Below are positions 275 to 17,827 of a stretch of 21,255 bases of DNA, piece by piece. Source of the DNA: a virus; the IMG/VR virus record IMGVR_UViG_3300013131_000294, positions 1-21,255 of that record. One strand, 5' to 3'. The translations under genes and the position numbers were made by a program. The first letter of the stretch is position 1, and every line of letters begins with the position of its first letter. Under the pieces are notes generated by a model. The model did no database searches, was not told the origin of the DNA, and worked only from the letters and a program-made list of their open reading frames with translations.

Positions 275-762
275 CCATCCCCAATCGCCCCCGTCTGGCC
301 GATCTCGTCACCATGCCGGTCGGCGCGGTGACCGCTCTGCCCGCCGAAACCCTGGCGCTGCTCCAGGAGGAGGCCGACGAGGCCCTGCGTGCCGCCAAGA
401 CCGTGAAGGATTGGCTGGATAGTGCGCTGGCCCTGAAATACAGCTCCCTGGCCAATCAGGCCCGCGCCGCCGCCAGCAAGGACACCGGCACCGTTCGCTT
501 CGCCGACGGCCTGGTCACCATCGTCGCCGATCTGCCGAAGCGGGTGGAATGGGATCAGTCCCGTCTCGCCGCCCTGGTGGAGCGCATCCGCGCCGAAGGC
601 GACGATCCGGCCGAGTTCGTCGAGATCTCCTACAAGGTGTCGGAACGCAAATACGGCGCTTGGCCCGGCTCCATCCGCTCGGCCTTCGAGGCGGCGCGCA
701 CGGTCAGGACCGGCAAGCCCACCTTCGCGCTGCAGATCGGCAGCGGGGAGGGCGTGCGATGA
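271..762 (+). CDS. Conserved phage hypothetical protein (163 aa)
   Basis: The ATG at 271 overlaps the preceding stop, and the gene's own TGA overlaps the ATG of the ATPase gene at 759, so it is translationally coupled on both sides. An upstream in-frame ATG at 127 would overlap the preceding gene by about 145 bases, so 271 is preferred; GGAGG at 260-264 is a plausible ribosome site. The N-terminal half is Ala/Leu-rich and probably helical (LALLQEEADEALRAAKTVK), followed by KDTGTVRFADG, ADLPKRVEWDQ and a KYGAWPGSIRSAFEAART segment. That order of conserved blocks is familiar from alphaproteobacterial prophage proteins next to AAA_24 ATPases, but I know of no assigned function. It may assist the recombination ATPase; this is only inferred from position. 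Confidence 0.8.
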   Translation: MTIPNRPRLADLVTMPVGAVTALPAETLALLQEEADEALRAAKTVKDWLDSALALKYSSLANQARAAASKDTGTVRFADGLVTIVADLPKRVEWDQSRLAALVERIRAEGDDPAEFVEISYKVSERKYGAWPGSIRSAFEAARTVRTGKPTFALQIGSGEGVR

Positions 763-1619
763 GCCTTCCCATTATCTCCGCCGACCAGCGCCTCGCCGAG
801 CGGCGCGGCATCAAGGGGGCGATCTTCGGCAAGTCGGGGATCGGCAAGACCACCCTGCTGCTGACCATGGCTCCGTCCTCGACGCTGTTCTTCGACCTGG
901 AAGCCGGCGACCTGGCCATCGAGGGCTGGGGCGGCGACAGCATCCGGCCGCGGACCTGGCAGGAATGCCGCGACTTCGCTGTGTTCATCGGCGGTCCCAA
1001 TCCGGCGCTGCGCGACGACCAGCCCTACAGCCAGGCCCATTTCGACGCGGTGTGCGAGCGCTTCGGCGAGGCGGCGGCGTTGGATCGCTACGACACCGTG
1101 TTCATCGACAGTATCACGGTGGCGGGGCGCCTGTGCCTGCAATGGTGCAAGGGCCAGCCGGAAGCCTTCTCGGATCGCACCGGCCGCCCCGACAGCCGTG
1201 GCGCCTATGGGCTGCACGGCCGCGAGATGATCGCCTGGCTGACCCATTTGCAGCACACCCGGGCCAAGAACGTCTGGTTCGTCGGCATCCTCGACGAGAA
1301 GCTGGACGACTTCAACCGCCGCCTGTTCGTGCCGCAGATCGACGGCTCCAAAACCGGCAACGAGCTGCCCGGCATCGTCGACGAGGTCATCACCATGGCG
1401 GAGATGACCGACGAGTCTGGCAAGCCGTACCGGGCTTTCGTCTGCCACACCCTCAATCCCTGGGGCTATCCGGCCAAGGACCGTAGCGGGCGGCTCGACG
1501 CGGTCGAGGAACCCCATCTCGGCCGACTGATGGACAAGATCCGCGGCCCCGCCCGGCCGGCGGCCGAACGCCTCGCCTTCGGCCTGCCCGCCCAATCCCC
1601 CGACACCACCACGATCTGA
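759..1619 (+). CDS. RecA-core phage ATPase, Sak4/AAA_24-like
   Basis: This 286-residue protein has a clear Walker A, GKSGIGKT at residues 24-31, and a Walker B ending in D117 (TVFIDSI). No AAA+ lid or helicase motifs are apparent, which fits the short RecA-core ATPases found in phages (AAA_24, or Sak4-type single-strand annealing/recombination proteins). The known role of Sak4-type proteins is ATP-dependent ssDNA binding and strand annealing or exchange during phage recombination, usually with an SSB partner. The next gene looks like such a partner, and an SF2 helicase follows. The ATG at 759 overlaps the preceding stop, which supports this start over an upstream in-frame one at 549. The C-terminal 30 residues are proline/alanine rich. 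The ATPase call is firm; the recombinase assignment is an inference from length and neighbours. Confidence 0.8.
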   Translation: MSLPIISADQRLAERRGIKGAIFGKSGIGKTTLLLTMAPSSTLFFDLEAGDLAIEGWGGDSIRPRTWQECRDFAVFIGGPNPALRDDQPYSQAHFDAVCERFGEAAALDRYDTVFIDSITVAGRLCLQWCKGQPEAFSDRTGRPDSRGAYGLHGREMIAWLTHLQHTRAKNVWFVGILDEKLDDFNRRLFVPQIDGSKTGNELPGIVDEVITMAEMTDESGKPYRAFVCHTLNPWGYPAKDRSGRLDAVEEPHLGRLMDKIRGPARPAAERLAFGLPAQSPDTTTI

Positions 1620-4343: not shown

Positions 4344-5110
4344 TGCTGGATTTCAACCACCGGCCCAAATTGGCGGAACGGGTCAACGCCCTGATCGACG
4401 ACGCTCTTGTCGCCGAGCGGGACGCCACGCCGTCCCGCACCTATCTCGGCGCCTCCCGGCTGGGAGTGCCGTGCGACCGGGCGCTCCAGTTCGAATATGT
4501 CGGCGCCCCCAAGGATGAGGGCGCCGATTTCGACGGCCGGACGCTCCGCATCTTTGCCATCGGCCATGTGCTGGAAGATCAGGCCATCCACTGGCTGCGC
4601 CAGGCGGGGTTCGACCTCTACATCCGCAAGGGCAACCGGCCGGATGGCGGCCAGTTCGGCTTCTCGGTCGCCGATGGGCGCATTCGCGGCCATGTGGACG
4701 GCATCATCGCCGCCGGCCCCGACTTGCCGGGCATGGCATTCCCGGCGCTGTGGGAATGCAAGACCATGAACGCCAGGAACTGGCGCGAGACCGCCGCCAA
4801 GGGCGTGGCGGTCACCAAGCCGGTCTATGCCGCCCAGATCGCCACCTATCAAGCCTACATGGAGGCGACGGTGCCGGGCATTTCCCAGGCCCCGGCGCTG
4901 TTCACCGCCATCAACAAGGACACCGCCGAGCTTCATCACGAACTGGTGCCGTTCGACGCGGCGCTGGCTCAGACGGTCAGCGACCGCGCCGTGCGCATCC
5001 TGCGCGCCACCGAGGCGGGCGACCTGCTGCCGCGCATCGCCCGCGAGCGCGATTTCCACGAATGCCGCTTCTGCGCTTGGTCCAACCGCTGCTGGAGCCT
5101 GCCGGCATGA
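4343..5110 (+). CDS. PD-(D/E)XK nuclease with Cas4/AddB-like cysteine set
   Basis: The 255-residue protein shows the RecB/Cas4-type nuclease signature: GHVLED at 74-79, the metal-binding Asp119 in HVDG, the E138-C-K140 catalytic pair in WECKT, and a following Gln/Tyr helix (YAAQIATYQ). One cysteine near the N-terminus (C44, in GVPCDRALQFEY) and three at the C-terminus (C241, C244, C250) have the spacing that in Cas4 and AddB holds a 4Fe-4S cluster. The expected activity is metal-dependent ssDNA/dsDNA exonuclease, producing ends for the upstream Sak4-like ATPase and SSB. The start overlaps the preceding stop and its own stop overlaps the primase start, so it belongs to the replication operon. 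There are no CRISPR genes nearby, so this is a recombination nuclease rather than an adaptation factor. Confidence 0.87.
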   Translation: MLDFNHRPKLAERVNALIDDALVAERDATPSRTYLGASRLGVPCDRALQFEYVGAPKDEGADFDGRTLRIFAIGHVLEDQAIHWLRQAGFDLYIRKGNRPDGGQFGFSVADGRIRGHVDGIIAAGPDLPGMAFPALWECKTMNARNWRETAAKGVAVTKPVYAAQIATYQAYMEATVPGISQAPALFTAINKDTAELHHELVPFDAALAQTVSDRAVRILRATEAGDLLPRIARERDFHECRFCAWSNRCWSLPA

Positions 5111-7389
5111 CCGACGCCACCCCCGGCCCGTGGCAGGATTTCAACGACGCGCCCCCCCAGGACGATTGCGCCGGCCTGGAGGCGGATGCCGGGGAGATCG
5201 CCATCTTCCTCGACGTGGTGTTCGGCTATTGCGACGGCTGGATTCCGTTGCGCGGTTTTGTTGACAAGGGGCAAGGCATCCAGGATCGCCCCCATACCGC
5301 CTGGATTCAGGCCGATGCCACCATGGTGGACAGCGCCCTGGCTTTCGCCGGCTGGGCGGCGCGCGAGGGGGCGGCCTTCTATGTCGTCCCCGGCACGGTG
5401 GCCGAATCCGGTCAGGCCAAGTCCGCCGACATCCGGCAGATGCAGGCGGTGGTGGTCGATCTCGACACCGGAGACATCGAGGCCAAGCTGGCGCACCTCG
5501 TCCGCCACCTCGGCGATCCCACCCTGGTGGTGGAAAGCGGCGGACGCACGCCCGAGGGCGACGACAAGCTGCATGTCTGGTGGCGTCTGACCGAACCCTC
5601 CGAGGGCGAGGACATCGACCTGCTGTGCCGCCTGCGCGGTGACATCGCCGACAAGGTCGGTGGCGACGCCCATTTCCGCTCGGCCCACCAGCCGATCCGG
5701 GTGGCCGGGTCGGTCTACCACAAGGGCGGCAGGCGGCGGCTGGTCAATATCCGCACCCATGCTTCCGGCCTCGAGGTCGATCTCCGCGACTTCGCCAATC
5801 TGGTCGATGCCATGCCGCTGTTGCCCGGCATCGGCATGACTCCCCGACCGGCGACCGCGGCACGGCCAGGCATCGACGCCATCCTGCTCACCCCGGTGCA
5901 TGAGGGCGGTGCCGACGACTGGACGCGCTTCCAGGGGGCCAGCGCCGCCATCGGCCATTACGTCCGCATGGCCCATGAGGGCCGCATCAGCCGCGACGAG
6001 GCCTGGGAGGCCATCTGTCAGTACAACGCCGCCCAACTGCGCCCGTCCTGGGAACTGGAACGCCTGGCGGCCGAGGCCCAGCGCCTGTGGCGGCTGCACG
6101 AGGAAAAGCACGGCCCCGGCCTCGACCGCCTGGCATCGCCGCCCATGTCCGGCCTGCCGGCCTTCTCCCTGGGGCAGTTGCTCGACGATGACAGCCCCAT
6201 GCCCGACGACATCATCGCGCCCCGCCTGGTGACGCCGGGCGGCATGCTGGTGCTGGGTGGCGCCCCCAAGGTGGGCAAGAGCGACTTCCTCATCAGTCTG
6301 CTGGCCCACATGGCGGCGGGGGTGCCCTTCCTCGGTTTCACCCCGGCCCGGCCGCTGCGGATCTTCTATCTCCAGGCCGAGATCCAGTACCACTACCTGC
6401 GCGAACGCCTGCGCTCGATCCGCCTTGATCCGGCCATCCTGGCGGCGGCGCGCGACAATCTGGTCGCCACCCCCAAGGTGCGGATGCTGCTCGACGGCAA
6501 CGGCCTGGCCCAGACCATCGCCGCCGTGCGCAGCCGCTTCGGCGATGTCCCGCCCGACCTCATCTGCATCGACCCGATCCGCAACCTGTTCGACGGCGGC
6601 CCAGATGGCAGTGGCGAGAACGACAACGCCGCCATGCTCTTCTTCCTCCAGGAGCGGGTCGAGGCCCTGCGCGACGCCGTCGCCCCCGATGCCGGCCTGA
6701 TCCTCTGCCACCACACCCGCAAGATCACCAAGAAGCTGCTGGCCGAGGACCCCTTCATGGCGCTGTCCGGCGCCGGGGCGCTGCGCAGCTTCTACACCTC
6801 CGGCATCATCATGTTCCGGCCCGACGAGGAACGCCCCGAGCGCCTGCTGCATTTCGAGCTGCGCAACGGCCCGGCCATCGAGCCCCGGATCGTCGACAAG
6901 GTCCATGGCCGCTGGGTCGAGATCGACCGTGCCTCGGAACGGCTGGTGCGCAAGGCCCATGGCGACCGCCTCGACGCAGAGCGGGTGCGCAAGCATGACG
7001 TCATCCTGCAGATCCTGCTGGACGAGGCCGCACAGGGCCGCCTGTACACCACCCTGCAGTTCGCCGAGACCTTCGAGAACCAGGGCGGGTTGGGCGGCAA
7101 GGACACCATCCGCGACCGCGTCAGCGTGCTGGCCACCAAGGGCTACATCAAGTTCGTGCGTGATGGCGCGGCCTTCGATCTGCCGGTGAGCAGGTCCAAG
7201 TTCGGCTATCTGTGCGCCGAGGGCATGGCGTTCCCCACCGGGGGCGAAGTCGCCGATCCCCTCACCGGCGAGATCACCCCGGCCTTCGCCGACGTGCTGC
7301 CCAGCCACTACAAATGCCCGCAGACCGGGGCAGCGCTGCCGGTCGAAAATCCCACCGTCTGGGTCTATCCGGCGGAGGGCGATCAATGA
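5107..7389 (+). CDS. Primase-helicase fusion (AEP-like primase plus RepA-type ATPase)
   Basis: The 760-residue product has two parts. Residues about 60-230 carry an archaeo-eukaryotic/RepB-like primase pattern: D118-L-D120 in VVVDLDTGD, a Ser-Gly loop (VESGGRTP), H156 in KLHVWWRL and an IRVAGSVYHKGG segment. From about 365 on is a RecA-fold helicase of the AAA_25/RepA type: Walker A GAPKVGKS (385-392), Walker B D489 in LICIDP, and a sensor-like ILCHHTRK. A C-terminal winged-helix-like region (LQFAETFENQGGLGGKDTI) may bind DNA. Such fusions make primers and unwind DNA at a phage or plasmid origin. The ATG at 5107 overlaps the nuclease stop. The repeat-rich non-coding region directly downstream is a natural candidate for its target. 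The helicase half is firm; the primase half is good but by eye. Confidence 0.85.
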   Translation: MTDATPGPWQDFNDAPPQDDCAGLEADAGEIAIFLDVVFGYCDGWIPLRGFVDKGQGIQDRPHTAWIQADATMVDSALAFAGWAAREGAAFYVVPGTVAESGQAKSADIRQMQAVVVDLDTGDIEAKLAHLVRHLGDPTLVVESGGRTPEGDDKLHVWWRLTEPSEGEDIDLLCRLRGDIADKVGGDAHFRSAHQPIRVAGSVYHKGGRRRLVNIRTHASGLEVDLRDFANLVDAMPLLPGIGMTPRPATAARPGIDAILLTPVHEGGADDWTRFQGASAAIGHYVRMAHEGRISRDEAWEAICQYNAAQLRPSWELERLAAEAQRLWRLHEEKHGPGLDRLASPPMSGLPAFSLGQLLDDDSPMPDDIIAPRLVTPGGMLVLGGAPKVGKSDFLISLLAHMAAGVPFLGFTPARPLRIFYLQAEIQYHYLRERLRSIRLDPAILAAARDNLVATPKVRMLLDGNGLAQTIAAVRSRFGDVPPDLICIDPIRNLFDGGPDGSGENDNAAMLFFLQERVEALRDAVAPDAGLILCHHTRKITKKLLAEDPFMALSGAGALRSFYTSGIIMFRPDEERPERLLHFELRNGPAIEPRIVDKVHGRWVEIDRASERLVRKAHGDRLDAERVRKHDVILQILLDEAAQGRLYTTLQFAETFENQGGLGGKDTIRDRVSVLATKGYIKFVRDGAAFDLPVSRSKFGYLCAEGMAFPTGGEVADPLTGEITPAFADVLPSHYKCPQTGAALPVENPTVWVYPAEGDQ

Positions 7390-7423: not shown

Positions 7424-7676
7424 GCGGATTCAAGTTGTGGCCAGTTGGGAACGCCTTTCCCAACTACATGCGCCTCGTCCCGAACCTGCCCTCCGCGTTT
7501 CTCTCCGGCCCGCCCCAGCAAGTTGGGAAAGCGTTTCCCAACTACATTCGCTCGACCCCGTCCAATCCCCTCGCATTGCGCGGATTCAAGTTGGGAACGG
7601 CAGCGGGCTTCCCAACTTCCCCAACTTGATTTTCTCCATGTCCCTCAATCAGTTGCGGGATGGTTCAAGTTGTGGG
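7424..7676. repeat. AGTTGGGAA palindrome / TTCAAGTTG direct-repeat array
   Basis: Direct copies of TTCAAGTTG lie at 7429-7437, 7585-7593 and 7664-7672, the first two within a longer shared GCGGATTCAAGTTG. AGTTGGGAA is paired with TTCCCAACT as inverted repeats at 7443-7465 (5-base spacer), 7521-7543 (arms extend to 10 bases, 3-base spacer) and 7589-7617 (11-base spacer). A further inverted CAACTTGA lies at 7622-7629. The first two palindromes are the same overall size, 78 bases centre to centre, and both are followed by ACAT. Such arrays are typical of replication origins (iterons) or cooperative repressor operators; which of the two cannot be told by eye. Confidence 0.75.
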
Positions 7677-7677
7677 G

Positions 7678-7752
7678 GTGAAACCCACCCCCTTTGGGGG
7701 TGGGGGAGAGCGCCGTGGGCGCGCTCTCCCATTCCCACCCCGGTGGGTTCAC
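7678..7752. repeat. Long G/C-rich hairpin downstream of the palindrome array
   Basis: An outer pair, GTGAAACCCACC (7678-7689) with GGTGGGTTCAC (7742-7752, one base shorter), encloses a G-rich/C-rich pair (GGGGTGG near 7697-7703 with CCACCCC at 7735-7741) and a perfect 10-base inner stem, GGGAGAGCGC (7704-7713) with GCGCTCTCCC (7721-7730), around a 7-base loop. There is no U-tract after it, so it is not a classical Rho-independent terminator. It could be an origin secondary structure for primer synthesis, a structured leader RNA or a transcription barrier. Confidence 0.6.
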
Positions 7753-7895: not shown

Positions 7896-8423
7896 ATGGC
7901 TGTTTCGACTCTGCCCGCTCCGGGCGACATTGCAAGTTCTCCGGCGGCATCTCCCGCCACCGCCATCCTCGCCCTTGATCTCGGCACCACTGCCGGATGG
8001 GCCATGCGCCTGTCCGACGGCACCATCGTCTCCGGCACCATGGCCTTCCGTCCCGGACGCTACGAGGGCGGGGGCATGCGCTTCCTGCGCTTCCGCTCCT
8101 GGCTCGACCACCTGCTGGACGGGGCCAAGGGTATCGGCACGGTGTATTTCGAGGAGGTCCGCCGCCATGCCGGGACCGATGCCGCCCACATCTACGGCGG
8201 CTTTCTCGCCCATCTCACCGCGTGGTGCGAACTCAACCACATCCCCTACCAGGGTGTTCCCGTCGGGGCCATCAAGCGCCACGCCACCGGCAAGGGCAAC
8301 GCCAGCAAGGACGCGGTCATCGCCGCCATGCGGGGGCGTGGGTTCAATCCCGAGGACGACAACGAGGCCGACGCGCTGGCCATCCTGTCCTGGGTAATCG
8401 ACACTCGGGGAGGTGCGCGATGA
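7896..8423 (+). CDS. RuvC-like Holliday junction resolvase
   Basis: The 175-residue protein has the RNase H-fold/RuvC arrangement of acidic residues: D28 in ILALDLGTTAGWA, the E86/E87 pair in VYFEEVRRHAG, and D154/D155 with D159 in the C-terminal EDDNEADALAI helix. The G-rich GKGNASKDAVI segment before the last motif is also typical. RuvC-like phage resolvases cut four-way junctions and branched DNA, clearing replication and recombination intermediates before packaging. The ATG at 7896 follows ACGGAGG at 7884-7890. The frame is open further upstream, but that part is low-complexity repeat DNA, so this start is preferred. The stop overlaps the next start. Length is normal for the family. Confidence 0.88.
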   Translation: MAVSTLPAPGDIASSPAASPATAILALDLGTTAGWAMRLSDGTIVSGTMAFRPGRYEGGGMRFLRFRSWLDHLLDGAKGIGTVYFEEVRRHAGTDAAHIYGGFLAHLTAWCELNHIPYQGVPVGAIKRHATGKGNASKDAVIAAMRGRGFNPEDDNEADALAILSWVIDTRGGAR

Positions 8424-9425: not shown

Positions 9426-10649
9426 ATGCATCTTGCTCTTCCCGAGCCGGTCCCGCCGGCCATCGGCGCAATGTCGTGCGCCCCGGTTGCCGATGGGCTG
9501 ATCTACGGCTCGGTGTGCAGCGGGATCGAGGCGGCGACGGTGGCGTGGGAGCCGTTGGGCTGGCGCCCAGCCTTCTACGCCGAGATTGAACCGTTCCCCT
9601 CCGCCGTGCTGGCGCACCGCCACCCGGCCATCCCCAACCTGGGTGACATGACAGCCATCGACGGCTCGGCGTGGCGGGGAAAGATCGACGTTCTGGTGGG
9701 CGGCACGCCCTGCCAGGCGTTCTCGGTGGCGGGCCGGCGCAAGTCGCTGGACGACGCCCGTGGCAATCTCGCACTCACCTTCGTGGACCTCGCCGATGCC
9801 ATCGACCCCGCCTGGATCGTCTGGGAGAACGTCCCCGGCGTGCTGTCCACCCGCGACAACGCCTTCGGGTGCCTTCTGGGCGGACTGGCCGGCGAAGATG
9901 GTCCGCTTCTTCCGCCAGGGGGCAAATGGGCGGACGCTGGTTGTGTGCTTGGACCCGCGCGGACAGTCGCATGGCGGGTACTCGACGCCCAACATTTCGG
10001 CCTGGCCCAACGACGCCGTCGCGTGTTCGTTATCGCAGGTGCTGGAGGCCGGGCCGATCCCGTCGCGGTACTTCTTGAGCGCGACGGCCTGCGCCGGGAT
10101 TCTCCGCCGAGCCGCCAATCGCGGCAAGACACTGCCGGCCCGGCTGCATGCCGCGCTTTCGGCGGCAACAACACATCAGGCCCCATCGACGTCGCCACCG
10201 CCCTGAACGCCTGTGCCTCGGCCAGCGGCCGCATGGATTTCGAGACCGAGACCTTTGTCACCCATTCCCTGCGCGGCGAAGGCTTCGACGCTTCCGAGGA
10301 CGGCACCGGACGCGGCACGCCATTGGTGCCGGTGGCGTTCGACTGCAAGGCCAGCCGCGACGTCTCCGCCGGAGCCATCGCGCCGACCTTGCGGGCGATG
10401 AACGCAATCGGCCGCGACAATGCCGGTGGCCAGTTGGCCGTCCACCACCATCTCGGCGTCCGCCGCCTGACGCCGCGCGAATGCGAGCGGCTCCAGGGGT
10501 TCCCGGACGACTACACCCGCATCCCCTGGCGGCGGAAGGCTGCCGAGGATTGTCCCGACGGCCCGCGCTATCGGGCGCTGGGAAACAGCATGGCCGTGCC
10601 GGTGATGCACTGGATCGGCAGCCGCATCCAGGCCGCAGGGAATCGATGA
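9426..10649 (+). CDS. DNA (cytosine-5) methyltransferase
   Basis: The 407-residue protein contains the ordered motifs of C5-cytosine methyltransferases: motif I-like SVCSGIEAATVAWEPLG, motif IV with catalytic C96 in GGTPCQAFS, motif VI ENVPG (E134), motif VIII QRRRRVF, motif IX LTPRECERLQGFPDDYT and motif X RYRALGNSMAVPV. It transfers methyl from S-adenosylmethionine to carbon 5 of cytosine in a specific site; the recognition region between motifs VIII and IX is about 150 residues and its target cannot be read by eye. No restriction endonuclease is adjacent, so it is an orphan, likely protecting phage DNA from host restriction. The start is uncertain: ATG 9426 lacks a ribosome site and an alternative ATG lies at 9471. 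The stop overlaps the next gene. Confidence 0.92.
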   Translation: MHLALPEPVPPAIGAMSCAPVADGLIYGSVCSGIEAATVAWEPLGWRPAFYAEIEPFPSAVLAHRHPAIPNLGDMTAIDGSAWRGKIDVLVGGTPCQAFSVAGRRKSLDDARGNLALTFVDLADAIDPAWIVWENVPGVLSTRDNAFGCLLGGLAGEDGPLLPPGGKWADAGCVLGPARTVAWRVLDAQHFGLAQRRRRVFVIAGAGGRADPVAVLLERDGLRRDSPPSRQSRQDTAGPAACRAFGGNNTSGPIDVATALNACASASGRMDFETETFVTHSLRGEGFDASEDGTGRGTPLVPVAFDCKASRDVSAGAIAPTLRAMNAIGRDNAGGQLAVHHHLGVRRLTPRECERLQGFPDDYTRIPWRRKAAEDCPDGPRYRALGNSMAVPVMHWIGSRIQAAGNR

Positions 10650-11515
10650 TGACCGGCAGTCCCTATCGCATCGACGGCCCGGCGCTGGTGTCGTTCTCGG
10701 GCGGGCGGACCTCTGGGTTCATGCTGCGCCAGATCCTGGACGCCCACGATGGCCGACTGCCCGCCGACGTCCATGTGGTGTTTTTCAATACCGGCCGGGA
10801 ATTCGAGCAGACGCTCCGCTTCGTCCACGAATGTGGGTCGCGCTGGCAGGTCGCCATCACCTGGCTGGAATACGATCCCGCCGAGCCCTTCGACACCGGC
10901 GTGGTCGGCTACAACAGCGCCGCCCGCGACGGCGAGCCCTTCGCCAAGGTGGTCCGGGCGCGGGGCTTCCTGCCCAACCCGACCATGCGGCTCTGCACCC
11001 ATTACCTCAAGGTCAAGCGCGGCATCGCGTTCATGCGCGACATGCTGGGCTACCCGGAATGGATCAACGTCGTCGGCCTGCGCCACGACGAGCCCCGCCG
11101 CGTCGCCCGTCAGAAGGCCATGAACGAGGCCGGCAAGGAGAGGTTCGAAACCCTCCTGCCTCTGAACGAAGCCCGCGTCACCCGCCAGGACGTCTCGGCC
11201 TTCTGGAAGCGGCAGCCCTTCGATCTCGGCCTGCCCGACAACGACGGCAAGACGCCGTTGGGGAACTGCGACCTCTGCTTCATGAAGGGCGCGGCGACCA
11301 TCAAGGGGATCATGCGCCTGTTCCCGGATCGGGCCAGATGGTGGATCGACATGGAGCGCAATGCTCCGGCGCTCGGCACCCTGACCAAGCCGGAAATGGC
11401 GCTGTTCCGCGCTGATCGCCCCAGTTACCGCGAGATGTTCCAGTTCGTCCGCCGCCAGCGGGATTTCGAGGGCGGCCCACCCGACGACTGCCTGCCCTGC
11501 GACTGCACGGACTGA
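10646..11515 (+). CDS. PAPS reductase-like PP-loop protein
   Basis: The 289-residue product starts at ATG ATG (10646 or 10649) overlapping the methyltransferase stop. The PP-loop SFSGGRTSG is at 16-24, the signature of the adenine-nucleotide alpha-hydrolase/PAPS reductase family, and VFFNTGREFEQTLRF follows. Additional marks are C117 in MRLCTHYLKVKRG, C208/C211 in GNCDLCFMKGA, and a terminal CLPCDC cluster. Real PAPS reductases make sulfite from PAPS, but many phage members, and DndC of DNA phosphorothioation, share this fold while acting in nucleic-acid modification. The cysteines could hold an iron-sulfur cluster or carry sulfur. Coupling to a DNA methyltransferase points to DNA modification or sulfur transfer rather than sulfate assimilation, as an inference. 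The exact substrate is unknown. Confidence 0.85.
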   Translation: MMTGSPYRIDGPALVSFSGGRTSGFMLRQILDAHDGRLPADVHVVFFNTGREFEQTLRFVHECGSRWQVAITWLEYDPAEPFDTGVVGYNSAARDGEPFAKVVRARGFLPNPTMRLCTHYLKVKRGIAFMRDMLGYPEWINVVGLRHDEPRRVARQKAMNEAGKERFETLLPLNEARVTRQDVSAFWKRQPFDLGLPDNDGKTPLGNCDLCFMKGAATIKGIMRLFPDRARWWIDMERNAPALGTLTKPEMALFRADRPSYREMFQFVRRQRDFEGGPPDDCLPCDCTD

Positions 11516-13112: not shown

Positions 13113-14510
13113 ATGACGATGAGTGATCTCAGGTTTCTGCCCTCTGCGATCGAGCATTGGCCGATCGACCGGCTGCACCCCTATGACCGCAACGCGCGGA
13201 CTCATTCGGACAGCCAGGTGGTGCAAATCGCGGGATCGATCGCCGAATTCGGCTGGACGACCCCCATCCTCGCCGACGGCCAGGGCAACGTCATCGCCGG
13301 CCATGGGCGGCTGGCGGCGGCGCAGCGGCTGGGGCTGGACAGGGTGCCGGTGCTGGTTCTCGACCACCTGACCGAGGCCCAGCGCCGCGCCTATGTGCTG
13401 GCCGACAACAAGCTGGCCCTCAATGCCGGCTGGGACGAGGAATTGCTGGCGGCGGAACTGCATGCGCTCAACGGCGACGGCTTCGACCTTGGGCTGACTG
13501 GCTTCTCCGACGAGGAACTGGCGGACCTGATGGCGCCGCTCGACGACGAGCCGGAGGAAGATGCTGCCGCCACTGACGGCGATGACGATGATATGGCCCC
13601 GGATCCGCCACGCGACCCGGTGTCGCGGCCTGGCGACCTCTGGCATTTCGGCAATAACCGCCTGCTGTGCGGCGACTCGACCGATGCGGCGGCGGTGGCC
13701 ACGCTGATGGCGGGTGAGACTGCGGCACTGGTGTTCACCTCGCCGCCCTACGGCCAGCAGCGGGATTACGCTTCCGGCGGTATCGCCGATTGGGACCGGC
13801 TGATGGCCGGGGTGTTCGCCGTCCTGCCGGTGAAGCCCGACGCGCAGGTGTTGGTCAATCTCGGCCTGATCCACCGCGAGGGGGAATGGGTACCGTATTG
13901 GCGCGGCTGGCTGGAGGCCATGCGCGAATCCGGCTGGCGTCAGTTTGGGTTGTACGCCTGGGATCAGGGACCGGGCCTGCCGGGCGACTGGGGCGGACGC
14001 CTAGCTCCCGCCTTCGAACTGGTGTTCCACTTCAACAAGGTCTCGCGCAAACCCAACAAGATCGTCGCCTGCGCCCATGCCGGCGAAAAACTGGGCGGCG
14101 GTGGCTTGCGGGCCGCCGACGGCACGGTGTCGAGAAAGACCGGCCACGGCAACGCCATCCAGGACGCCCGCATTCCCGACAGCGTGCTGCGGGTGACCCG
14201 CCACAAGGGCGCCATCGAAGGCGACGGCTGTCACCCGGCGGTGTTCCCGGTGGCGCTGCCGGACTTCGTCATGCGGGCCTATTCCGACGAGGGCGAGGTG
14301 GTGTTCGAGCCATTCTCTGGCTCGGGCAGCACCATCATCGCCGGCCAGCGCACGGGGCGGATCGTCCGTGCCATGGAACTGGCCCCCGCCTATTGCGACG
14401 TGGCGATCCTGCGCTGGCAGGCGCTGTTTCCCGACATCCCGGTGACGCTGGCTGACGGCCGCCCGTTCGCGGCGGTCATGACCGAGCGCGGAGTTGACCA
14501 TGCTGGTTGA
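13113..14510 (+). CDS. ParB-like / DNA methyltransferase fusion 1 (TSPPYG type)
   Basis: The 465-residue protein begins with a ParB/Srx-like domain (residues about 10-140): a RNARTHS segment, GSIAEFG and the signature IAGHGR at 61-66. An acidic linker (about 140-170) follows, with DPVSRPGDLW at its end. The C-terminal class-beta amino-methyltransferase has motif IV TSPPYG (209-214) before the AdoMet-binding motif I FSGSGS (401-406). It methylates an exocyclic amino group; S-P-P-Y is often seen in N4-cytosine enzymes, but N6-adenine is not excluded. The ParB domain may aid DNA binding. There is no restriction partner. The start may be 13113 or 13119; neither has a strong ribosome site. The 3' end overlaps fusion 2 by 11 bases. 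Confidence 0.9.
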   Translation: MTMSDLRFLPSAIEHWPIDRLHPYDRNARTHSDSQVVQIAGSIAEFGWTTPILADGQGNVIAGHGRLAAAQRLGLDRVPVLVLDHLTEAQRRAYVLADNKLALNAGWDEELLAAELHALNGDGFDLGLTGFSDEELADLMAPLDDEPEEDAAATDGDDDDMAPDPPRDPVSRPGDLWHFGNNRLLCGDSTDAAAVATLMAGETAALVFTSPPYGQQRDYASGGIADWDRLMAGVFAVLPVKPDAQVLVNLGLIHREGEWVPYWRGWLEAMRESGWRQFGLYAWDQGPGLPGDWGGRLAPAFELVFHFNKVSRKPNKIVACAHAGEKLGGGGLRAADGTVSRKTGHGNAIQDARIPDSVLRVTRHKGAIEGDGCHPAVFPVALPDFVMRAYSDEGEVVFEPFSGSGSTIIAGQRTGRIVRAMELAPAYCDVAILRWQALFPDIPVTLADGRPFAAVMTERGVDHAG

Positions 14511-15759
14511 AGCGATCGAGAAATGGCCGCTCGACCGGCTGCTGCCCTATGCCGCTAATGCCAGGACGCATTCCGAGGGGCAAGTAGCCCAACTCGCCGG
14601 CAGCATCGCTGAATTCGGTTTCAACGTGCCGGTCCTGGTGGACGAGCGCGGCGTGCTGATCGCCGGCCACGGCCGCCTGCTGGCTGCCCGCCATCTCGGG
14701 CTGACCGAGGTGCCGGTGATCCGGCTGGGCCACCTGACCGACGCCCAGGCTCGCGCCTACCGCCTTGCCGATAATCAGTTGGCGCTGAACGCCGGCTGGG
14801 ACGACGAGCTGCTCGCCGCCGAACTGGCCCGCCTCCAGGAGGATGGGTTCAGCCTCGACCTGATCGGCTTTTCCGACGAAGACCTGGAGCGGCTGATGGC
14901 CGACACCGATGCCGAGGGCGACGGTGCCGGCGAGACCGACGAAGACGACATCCCCAAGCCGCCCGCCGATCCGGTGACGCGGCCAGGCGATCTGTGGATC
15001 CTCGGCCGCCACCGCCTGCTGTGCGGCGACAGCACCAGCGCCACCGACGTCGAGCGCCTGCTGGCCGGAGCGACTCCGCACCTGATGGTCACAGATCCTC
15101 CGTATGGCGTGGAATACGATCCGTCCTGGCGGAACCAAGCCGGGGTGTCGTCCACCGCCCGCACCGGCAAGGTCGCCAACGATGACCGCGCCGATTGGCG
15201 GGAAGCCTGGGCGCTGTTCCCCGGCGAGGTCGCCTATGTCTGGCACGCGGCCATCTTCGCCAAGGTGGTGGCCGACAGCCTGGAAGCCAACGACTTCAAG
15301 ATCCGCACCCAGATCATCTGGTCGAAGAACCGCTTCGTCCTGGGCCGGGGTGATTATCACTGGCAGCACGAACCCTGCTGGTACGCCGTGCGCAAGAGCG
15401 GCACCGGCCATTGGCAAGGGGCGAGGGATCAGGCCACCGTTTGGGCCATCGGCAACGGTGGTGACGAGGACGAGGCCACGGTTCACGGCACCCAGAAGCC
15501 GGTGGAATGCATGCGCCGTCCGATCCTCAACAACAGCGCCGAGGGCGACGGGGTGTACGAGCCGTTCGCGGGCAGCGGAACCACGGTGATCGCCGCCGAG
15601 ACTACGGGCCGCAGATGCTTTGCGATGGAATTGAACCCGGCCTATGCCGACGTGATCGTCGGCCGCTGGCAGAAGCTGACCGGGAGCAAGGCCGTGCTGG
15701 ACGGCGATGGCCGGAGCTTCGAGGAGATTGCTGCCGGGAAGGCGGTCAGCGCCGGGTGA
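14500..15759 (+). CDS. ParB-like / DNA methyltransferase fusion 2 (TDPPYG type)
   Basis: A paralogue of the preceding gene: the N-terminal 130 residues share the NARTHS, GSIAEFG and IAGHGR (54-59) blocks, and LADN-LALNAGWD-ELLAAEL. The methyltransferase part has motif IV TDPPYG (198-203) and motif I FAGSGT (356-361), the DPPY form common in N6-adenine enzymes. The middle (for example IIWSKNRFVLGRGDYHWQHE and GTQKPVE) differs strongly from fusion 1, so the DNA sites should differ. ATG 14500 has GGAG at 14490-14493; a TTG at 14494 would only add two residues. The product is 419 residues. It most likely masks phage DNA at a second site. The stop lies inside the convergent leftward gene. Confidence 0.92.
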   Translation: MLVEAIEKWPLDRLLPYAANARTHSEGQVAQLAGSIAEFGFNVPVLVDERGVLIAGHGRLLAARHLGLTEVPVIRLGHLTDAQARAYRLADNQLALNAGWDDELLAAELARLQEDGFSLDLIGFSDEDLERLMADTDAEGDGAGETDEDDIPKPPADPVTRPGDLWILGRHRLLCGDSTSATDVERLLAGATPHLMVTDPPYGVEYDPSWRNQAGVSSTARTGKVANDDRADWREAWALFPGEVAYVWHAAIFAKVVADSLEANDFKIRTQIIWSKNRFVLGRGDYHWQHEPCWYAVRKSGTGHWQGARDQATVWAIGNGGDEDEATVHGTQKPVECMRRPILNNSAEGDGVYEPFAGSGTTVIAAETTGRRCFAMELNPAYADVIVGRWQKLTGSKAVLDGDGRSFEEIAAGKAVSAG

Positions 15760-17140: not shown

Positions 17141-17827
17141 TCAGGCTTGAATTTTGTAGGTTCGACCGCGTCCCTCGACCTTCTCGCTGGTGACCTCCAG
17201 GCCCAGCTTCTTCTTCAAGGCCCCGGCGATGGCGCCCCTGACGGTGTGTGCCAGCCAGCCCGTCGCTGCCATGATCTCGGCGATGCTGGCCCCTTCAGGC
17301 CGCTTCAGCATGGCGATCAGGGTATCCTGCTTGGTGCCGCTGGTGGCGCACGGCTTGGTCGGCGCGGGATCGGGGGCGAGGCTAAGGCCGGAAATCGCCT
17401 CGCCACTCGGGAGGAGAACTTCGACTCCGGCTGCTGCGAGGACATCCCGTAGGGAGAGGTTCCGTTCGGACATTGCCCCGGCCAGCCGCGTCAGGGCCTT
17501 TTCCTTGTAATTGAACGACTTCGCGCTGACCGGCTCGCCGGTCAACGTCGTCATAGCGGTGGCGATCTGGGCAACGGTGAGCTTCTCCAGGCCGGCCGGA
17601 ATGGTCGGGGCATCTTCTTCCTTCGGAGGCGAGATCGCGTCCCGTCCCGCCGTGGTGACAATGAACGGCATGTCGGAGATCAGGCCCGCCTTCAGAAGGG
17701 CGTGGATGATCTTGGTGGCAGTGCCGCCCCTGATGTGATCGGGCAGGGGCTCGACGGCTCCATCGGGGCGTTCGGCTGCCGCTGCAAGAACAAGGCGCTG
17801 GCTGTCGGTAAGTTGAATTCGCGTCAT
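17141..17827 (-). CDS. DUF3489-domain protein
   Basis: The 228-residue product has an N-terminal winged-helix-like segment (IQLTDSQRLVLAAAAERPDG, then TKIIHALLKAGLISD), a middle linker, and a C-terminal DUF3489 domain: GTKQDTLIAMLKRPEGASIA, EIMAATGWLAHTVRG and a basic KVEGRGRTYKI end. Both halves look like DNA-binding helix-turn-helix units, so a regulator or DNA-binding accessory is likely. DUF3489 proteins are frequent on alphaproteobacterial phages and plasmids, without an established role. The start at 17827 is preceded on the minus strand by a GAGGG-like ribosome site. A strong hairpin (17881-17911) lies between this gene and the upstream leftward gene. Confidence 0.82.
   Translation of the reverse strand: MTRIQLTDSQRLVLAAAAERPDGAVEPLPDHIRGGTATKIIHALLKAGLISDMPFIVTTAGRDAISPPKEEDAPTIPAGLEKLTVAQIATAMTTLTGEPVSAKSFNYKEKALTRLAGAMSERNLSLRDVLAAAGVEVLLPSGEAISGLSLAPDPAPTKPCATSGTKQDTLIAMLKRPEGASIAEIMAATGWLAHTVRGAIAGALKKKLGLEVTSEKVEGRGRTYKIQA

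Follow-up and report, generated by a model that had tools for sequence, protein, structure and literature searches.

A probable iteron-type replication origin directly 3' of a primase-helicase gene in phages of Alphaproteobacteria

Comparative analysis of a viral genome fragment (IMG/VR record IMGVR_UViG_3300013131_000294; the whole stretch of 21,255 nucleotides is referred to here as the window) suggests that a repeat array directly 3' of its primase-helicase gene is, in all likelihood, a phage replication origin of the iteron type, to which the protein encoded next to it, a PrimPol joined to a RepA-like helicase, binds through its C-terminal domain. A preliminary description had proposed either an origin bound by the primase-helicase or an operator. 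The first option is strongly supported by comparison, because the array is conserved beside the gene and covaries with the C-terminal winged-helix domain, but with neither the remainder of the protein nor the gene that follows; the operator option gained no independent support.

The array lies inside a gap of 506 bases between the gene for the 760-residue primase-helicase (5107-7389, + strand) and a gene for a RuvC-like Holliday junction resolvase (7896-8423, + strand; PHROG 159, 6e-27). Its repeats are far above chance: AGTTGGGAA has six copies in the whole 21,255-base record, all within the array, while the reversed control word has none, and AAGTTGGGAA with at most one mismatch gives seven matches, again all within the array, where 0.41 are expected and no shuffled sequence reached seven. 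The three inverted pairs of the preliminary description, with spacers of 5, 3 and 11 bases, are present as AGTTGGGAA-N5-TTCCCAACT at 7443-7465 (arms 7443-7451 and 7457-7465), AGTTGGGAAA-N3-TTTCCCAACT at 7521-7543 (10-bp arms, 7521-7530 and 7534-7543) and AGTTGGGAA-N11-TTCCCAACT at 7589-7617 (arms 7589-7597 and 7609-7617). The two tightest palindromes are, as described, of equal size (23 bp) with starts 78 bases apart, and the analysis likewise recovered the three direct TTCAAGTTG units (starts 7429, 7585 and 7664), two of them inside the shared longer unit GCGGATTCAAGTTG (starts 7424 and 7580), and the extra inverted CAACTTGA (7622-7629). Half-sites absent from that earlier list are AGTTGTG at 7433-7439 (+ strand), the inverted CCCAACT at 7620-7626 (- strand), AGTTGCG at 7651-7657 and the last half-site, AGTTGTG, at 7668-7674 (+ strand). 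In all, ten half-sites across 7433-7674 place multiple short repeats beside the primase-helicase gene, as is typical of iteron origins.

Relatives were taken as loci encoding a protein 63-79% identical to that of the window, and were found in viral contigs and in 80 genome contigs, nearly all of the latter from named Alphaproteobacteria; removal of duplicates left 214 distinct downstream regions for comparison. In alphaproteobacterial prophages and phage contigs, the same layout recurs on the 3' side of the primase-helicase gene, with 1250 AGTT words in the first 330 nt past the primase stop codon at the 214 loci against 32 in an equal coding stretch. The preliminary description would have been contradicted had the repeats not been conserved in relatives with the same flanking genes; they are conserved. 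The half-sites fall into three main classes, AGTTGGG, AGTTTnGG and AGTTAGG, which were assigned by simple-word calls on the base that follows AGTT (AGTTG(G/T/C)G, AGTTTnG and AGT(T/C)AGG). A few relatives have few or no AGTT repeats, and most of these, although not all, carry other repeats. Further classes were seen at L068 (CAGATTCC), L147 (CAGATTTC), L139 (TCGTCCTC), L112 (CCCAAAGTC), L039 (GAGGTTGC) and L244 (CTCGGTCC), each of these loci having its own C-terminal residues; the set of specificities is therefore larger than three, as repeats such as CAGATTCC, TCGTCCTC and CCCAAAGTC illustrate. No such array was found near the AAA_25 gene of phage WO of Wolbachia, whose product has this domain in common with the window protein. 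At this locus (L488), adjacent AAA_24 and AAA_25 genes, related to window positions 699-1619 and to the helicase domain, respectively, are split from a PrimPol.

The element is longer than the 7424-7676 interval of the preliminary description: it takes in an AT-rich stretch and an IHF-like site as well and, with two tandem hairpins, reaches position 7743. The IHF-like site, CCTCAATCAGTTG (7643-7655, + strand), has two mismatches to WATCAANNNNTTR, overlaps the half-site at 7651-7657 and is followed after 12 nt by the last half-site. WATCAANNNNTTR itself occurs exactly on the + strand in 86 of the 214 downstream regions, as compared with three occurrences on the minus strand and none in shuffled sequences or coding controls, and in 161 of 192 relatives a distance of 12 or 13 nt separates the IHF-like site from the AGTT or AGTC that comes next. 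A candidate unwinding zone is provided by the 40 nt with the highest AT content in the intergenic region (7614-7653; 57.5%), and AT content over the 50 nt that precede the hairpin is 0.55, compared with 0.44 elsewhere, so that an AT-rich region adjoins the repeats. AGTTAGG-class loci (L066, L160, L201 and others) have IHF-like sites approximately 33 nt and 112 nt after the stop codon, with GAAGACTTCATGAAGTCTT between them. The window also encodes a DNA-binding protein of the HU/IHF family (PF00216; 16491-16760).

Beyond the array, GTGAAA (7678-7683) precedes hairpin A (CCACCCCC-TTT-GGGGGTGG; 7685-7703, + strand), which is followed by hairpin C (GGGAGAGCGCC...GGCGCGCTCTCCC; 7704-7730, + strand) and by strand A2 (CCCACCCCGG; 7734-7743, + strand), which duplicates hairpin A's 5' arm and is able to pair with the 3' arm. 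Stem A, scored as at least seven of eight pairs around a T-initial triloop, was counted in 71 of 80 relatives, against 12 in shuffled sequences, by a script that leans towards pairing; a loop-anchored register was used because alignment of the hairpins with MAFFT misplaced the loop between classes. The inner pairs of hairpin A covary in relatives (C-G to A-T and so on), giving many pair types with pairing kept. Across all viral contigs, 47 of 47 matches to one hairpin pattern and 77 of 80 matches to another fell within 400 bases 3' of a primase-helicase gene and on the same strand; the remaining three of 80 are all at contig ends, one of them showing the last codons of the primase-helicase gene. 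Searches of Rfam with the window and eight relatives returned no matching family.

The only Pfam domain matched by the 760-residue protein was AAA_25 (2e-19), and the primase profile found no meaningful match among PDB sequences, but an AlphaFold2 model (mean pLDDT 74.9) predicts a PrimPol domain at residues ~25-234, a helicase domain at ~387-606 and a C-terminal winged helix at ~622-760. In structural comparisons of this model (Foldseek/VIA-align), the AEP/PrimPol part (residues ~25-234/344) resembles the PrimPol of cyanophage S-2L (6zp9, Z 20.9) and the RSF1010 primase RepB' (3h20, Z 16.4; 3h25 also matched), and the predicted RecA-fold of residues 387-606 resembles the RSF1010 helicase RepA (1g8y, Z 13.5). 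The predicted structure thus combines a RepB'-like primase with a RepA-like helicase, the pairing that is characteristic of RSF1010-type systems. The C-terminal domain, the proposed iteron reader (codons 622-760, window positions 6970-7386, + strand), reached a pLDDT of 82 when folded alone, with a helix-helix-helix-wing layout, and its structural neighbours were mostly winged helices at modest Z scores (5-6.5); Foldseek with this domain alone returned no match at E below 0.05. A winged-helix fold is the likely interpretation of this model.

If the C-terminal domain reads the array, then the array class should track that domain and not the remainder of the protein. Class changes were counted by parsimony on FastTree trees of protein windows, keeping 71-80 sequences below 95% identity. 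Every window up to residue 620 required a minimum of 16-22 changes (shuffled labels, ~34), whereas windows from residue 600 on required 4-7. Individual pairs illustrate both directions of exchange: in L052 and L246, identity is 97% across residues 1-605 and 68% across the C-terminal part, and the two loci differ in iteron class while having the same hairpin type; converse pairs with cores 65% identical and C-terminal parts 83% identical share a class. All of the 30 most class-linked of the 760 residues lie in 600-760. In an association that was found in the data and had not been predicted beforehand, class is best predicted by residue 650 (7054-7056), which is L, N or M and gives the right class in 96% of cases; residues 664 and 666 come next (residues 664-666, 7096-7104). 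Tree-independent pairs agree for residue 650, with L accompanying AGTTG in 9-11 pairs to 0, N accompanying AGTTT in 6-7 to 0 and M accompanying AGTTA in 6-7 to 0, while the agreement of hairpin type with two of the classes was not significant and with the remaining class amounted to a weak trend. From these sequence comparisons, it appears that related phages have repeatedly swapped the C-terminal domain together with the matching repeats, and this joint exchange suggests that the two function as a pair.

An operator or regulatory array, through which the C-terminal domain of the primase or some other regulator would control ruvC and later genes, with the hairpins acting as terminator or attenuator, is an unlikely explanation of these observations. 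It would suit the constant position of the element between primase and ruvC, which are transcribed in the same direction, and a dimeric regulator would suit inverted half-sites; the A1, B1 and A2 strands could, in addition, give alternative hairpins. However, specificity follows a domain of the replication enzyme and not ruvC, on whose tree the class changes 22 times; the hairpins lack a T-run after them, the promoter of the primase itself is located elsewhere, and iterons, an IHF-like site and AT-rich DNA together represent the anatomy of an origin.

The tree of ruvC also bears on whether the covariation reflects nothing but the linkage of neighbours, as the array adjoins the C-terminal domain and the exchanged stretch is contiguous. 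Because linkage alone could give such covariation for neighbouring sequences, the gene on the other side was examined through its tree, a change of downstream gene being uninformative, since 70 of 70 relatives have ruvC as the next gene. For an identical set of 62 rows, the RuvC tree required 22 changes and the C-terminal domain tree 5, although ruvC is comparably distant from the array. Furthermore, the number of changes is flat at 16-22 over 600 residues and then drops sharply at the domain boundary, the best-linked residues lie where helices 2 (649-655) and 3 (665-677) of the predicted winged helix begin, and the hairpin between the array and ruvC often stayed in place when the array moved. 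Mere linkage is, accordingly, quite improbable as the cause of the covariation.

That the array is a centromere-like partition site or a packaging site, lying beside the primase by chance, is hardly credible: partition and packaging elements can also have repeated inverted sites and an IHF-like site, and the window contains two ParB_N-methylase genes, but these are kilobases from the array, the terminase genes are ~11 kb from it, and specificity tracks the C-terminal domain of the primase. The two genes in question are adjacent (13113-14510 and 14494-15759), and both combine a ParB_N-like domain with an N6/N4 DNA methylase domain. A C5 cytosine methylase gene (9426-10649) followed by a PAPS-reductase-like gene (10664-11515) may form a DNA-modification pair, and a gene with a DUF3489 domain lies on the opposite strand (17141-17827).

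SaPI Rep and Cch2 contain SF3 helicases. The proposed origin resembles those of P4 alpha, SaPI-PICI Rep and SCCmec Cch2 in its iterons, in a C-terminal domain that would bind and read them and in its allelic variants, the P4 winged helix serving as precedent (PMC6092414; PMC7581432; PMC4234260). The SaPI, PICI and SCCmec origins lie directly 3' of the helicase (rep) gene and are read by its C-terminal domain, and the position directly 3' of the initiator helicase gene is thus a further likeness to PICI and SCCmec (PMC6092414; PMC7581432). Unlike these systems, the present element resides in terminase-bearing alphaproteobacterial phages, its protein has a predicted AEP primase fused to a RepA-like RecA-fold helicase, and its array is flanked by an IHF-like site and tandem hairpins. 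RSF1010 oriV offers a second likeness, with a RepB'-like AEP primase and a RepA-like hexameric helicase, as judged from predicted structures, and with iterons and hairpins beside GTG (PMC4434180; PMC4538821). However, RepA, RepB' and RepC are separate proteins in RSF1010, while the three activities are predicted to reside in one polypeptide here, and in place of two opposite-strand ssi hairpins with GTG 3' of each, the present element has one hairpin cluster with GTG 5' of hairpin A.

A structure-conserved stem-loop directly 3' of a primase-helicase gene is shared with the archaeal plasmid pRN1 and the unrelated Bordetella phage BPP-1, in which a stem-loop of varying sequence but maintained pairing follows a PrimPol-helicase-winged-helix gene (PMC4234260). 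These elements are devoid of iterons, no sequence-specific binding was found for pRN1, and the helicase of the pRN1-type protein belongs to SF3 (PMC4234260), whereas iterons are present here and the helicase is predicted to be RepA-like with a RecA fold. The PrimQH and related PrimPol-PV1 families have the same layout of AEP, RepA/DnaB-type helicase and C-terminal winged helix, for which origin recognition was suggested; the likeness is one of domain layout, and the accessible part of their description gives no origin sequences or specificity (PMC5862659). The primase-polymerase of phage NrS-1, also a phage PrimPol fused to a helicase, recognizes GTGA/GTGG and an 8-base template motif, and the accessible part of its description mentions neither an iteron array nor an IHF-like site, nor any swaps of C-terminal specificity (PMC8718748). 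A literature search of limited breadth revealed no description of the present element. It appears to be a distinct variant that resembles the P4, PICI and RSF1010 origins and merges known features, in phages, with natural cassette exchange.

In the proposed mechanism of initiation, the PrimPol/RepA-like helicase would bind the inverted AGTTGGG half-sites through its C-terminal winged-helix domain, and IHF or a relative would bend the DNA that separates the last half-site from the array. The neighbouring AT-rich DNA might then open and the helicase domain load, and the single-stranded hairpins exposed beside GTG may position the N-terminal primase, as RSF1010 ssi sites do. Priming at the hairpin and GTG is the least certain step of this mechanism, because GTG lies 3' of the hairpin in RSF1010 ssiA (PMC4434180), but 5' of it on the + strand here. 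Conservation of the element, its exclusive linkage to the gene, the covariation of both specificity and hairpin, and the IHF-like consensus are supported by comparison, and the three domain folds by prediction. Cumulative GC skew of the 21-kb fragment reaches its minimum near 11.5-12 kb, away from the array, and was not used as evidence because the record is incomplete.

These findings name a likely origin, together with its likely initiator, for a large group of alphaproteobacterial phages and prophages that has received little description. It is tentatively suggested, at somewhat short of even confidence, that this origin is modular, with the winged helix of the initiator and the iteron array being swapped as a cassette between otherwise near-identical phages and a few positions (L, N or M at residue 650, with GKD or SKH at 664-666) setting the base after AGTT, and that such swaps may create incompatibility groups, allowing related phages and prophages to coexist. 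The natural swaps supply initiator/origin pairs, matched and mismatched, with which the suggested recognition of origins by the C-terminal winged helices of PrimPol-helicases can be tested directly at the level of single residues, and the element could, in addition, yield new replicons for laboratory strains of Alphaproteobacteria.
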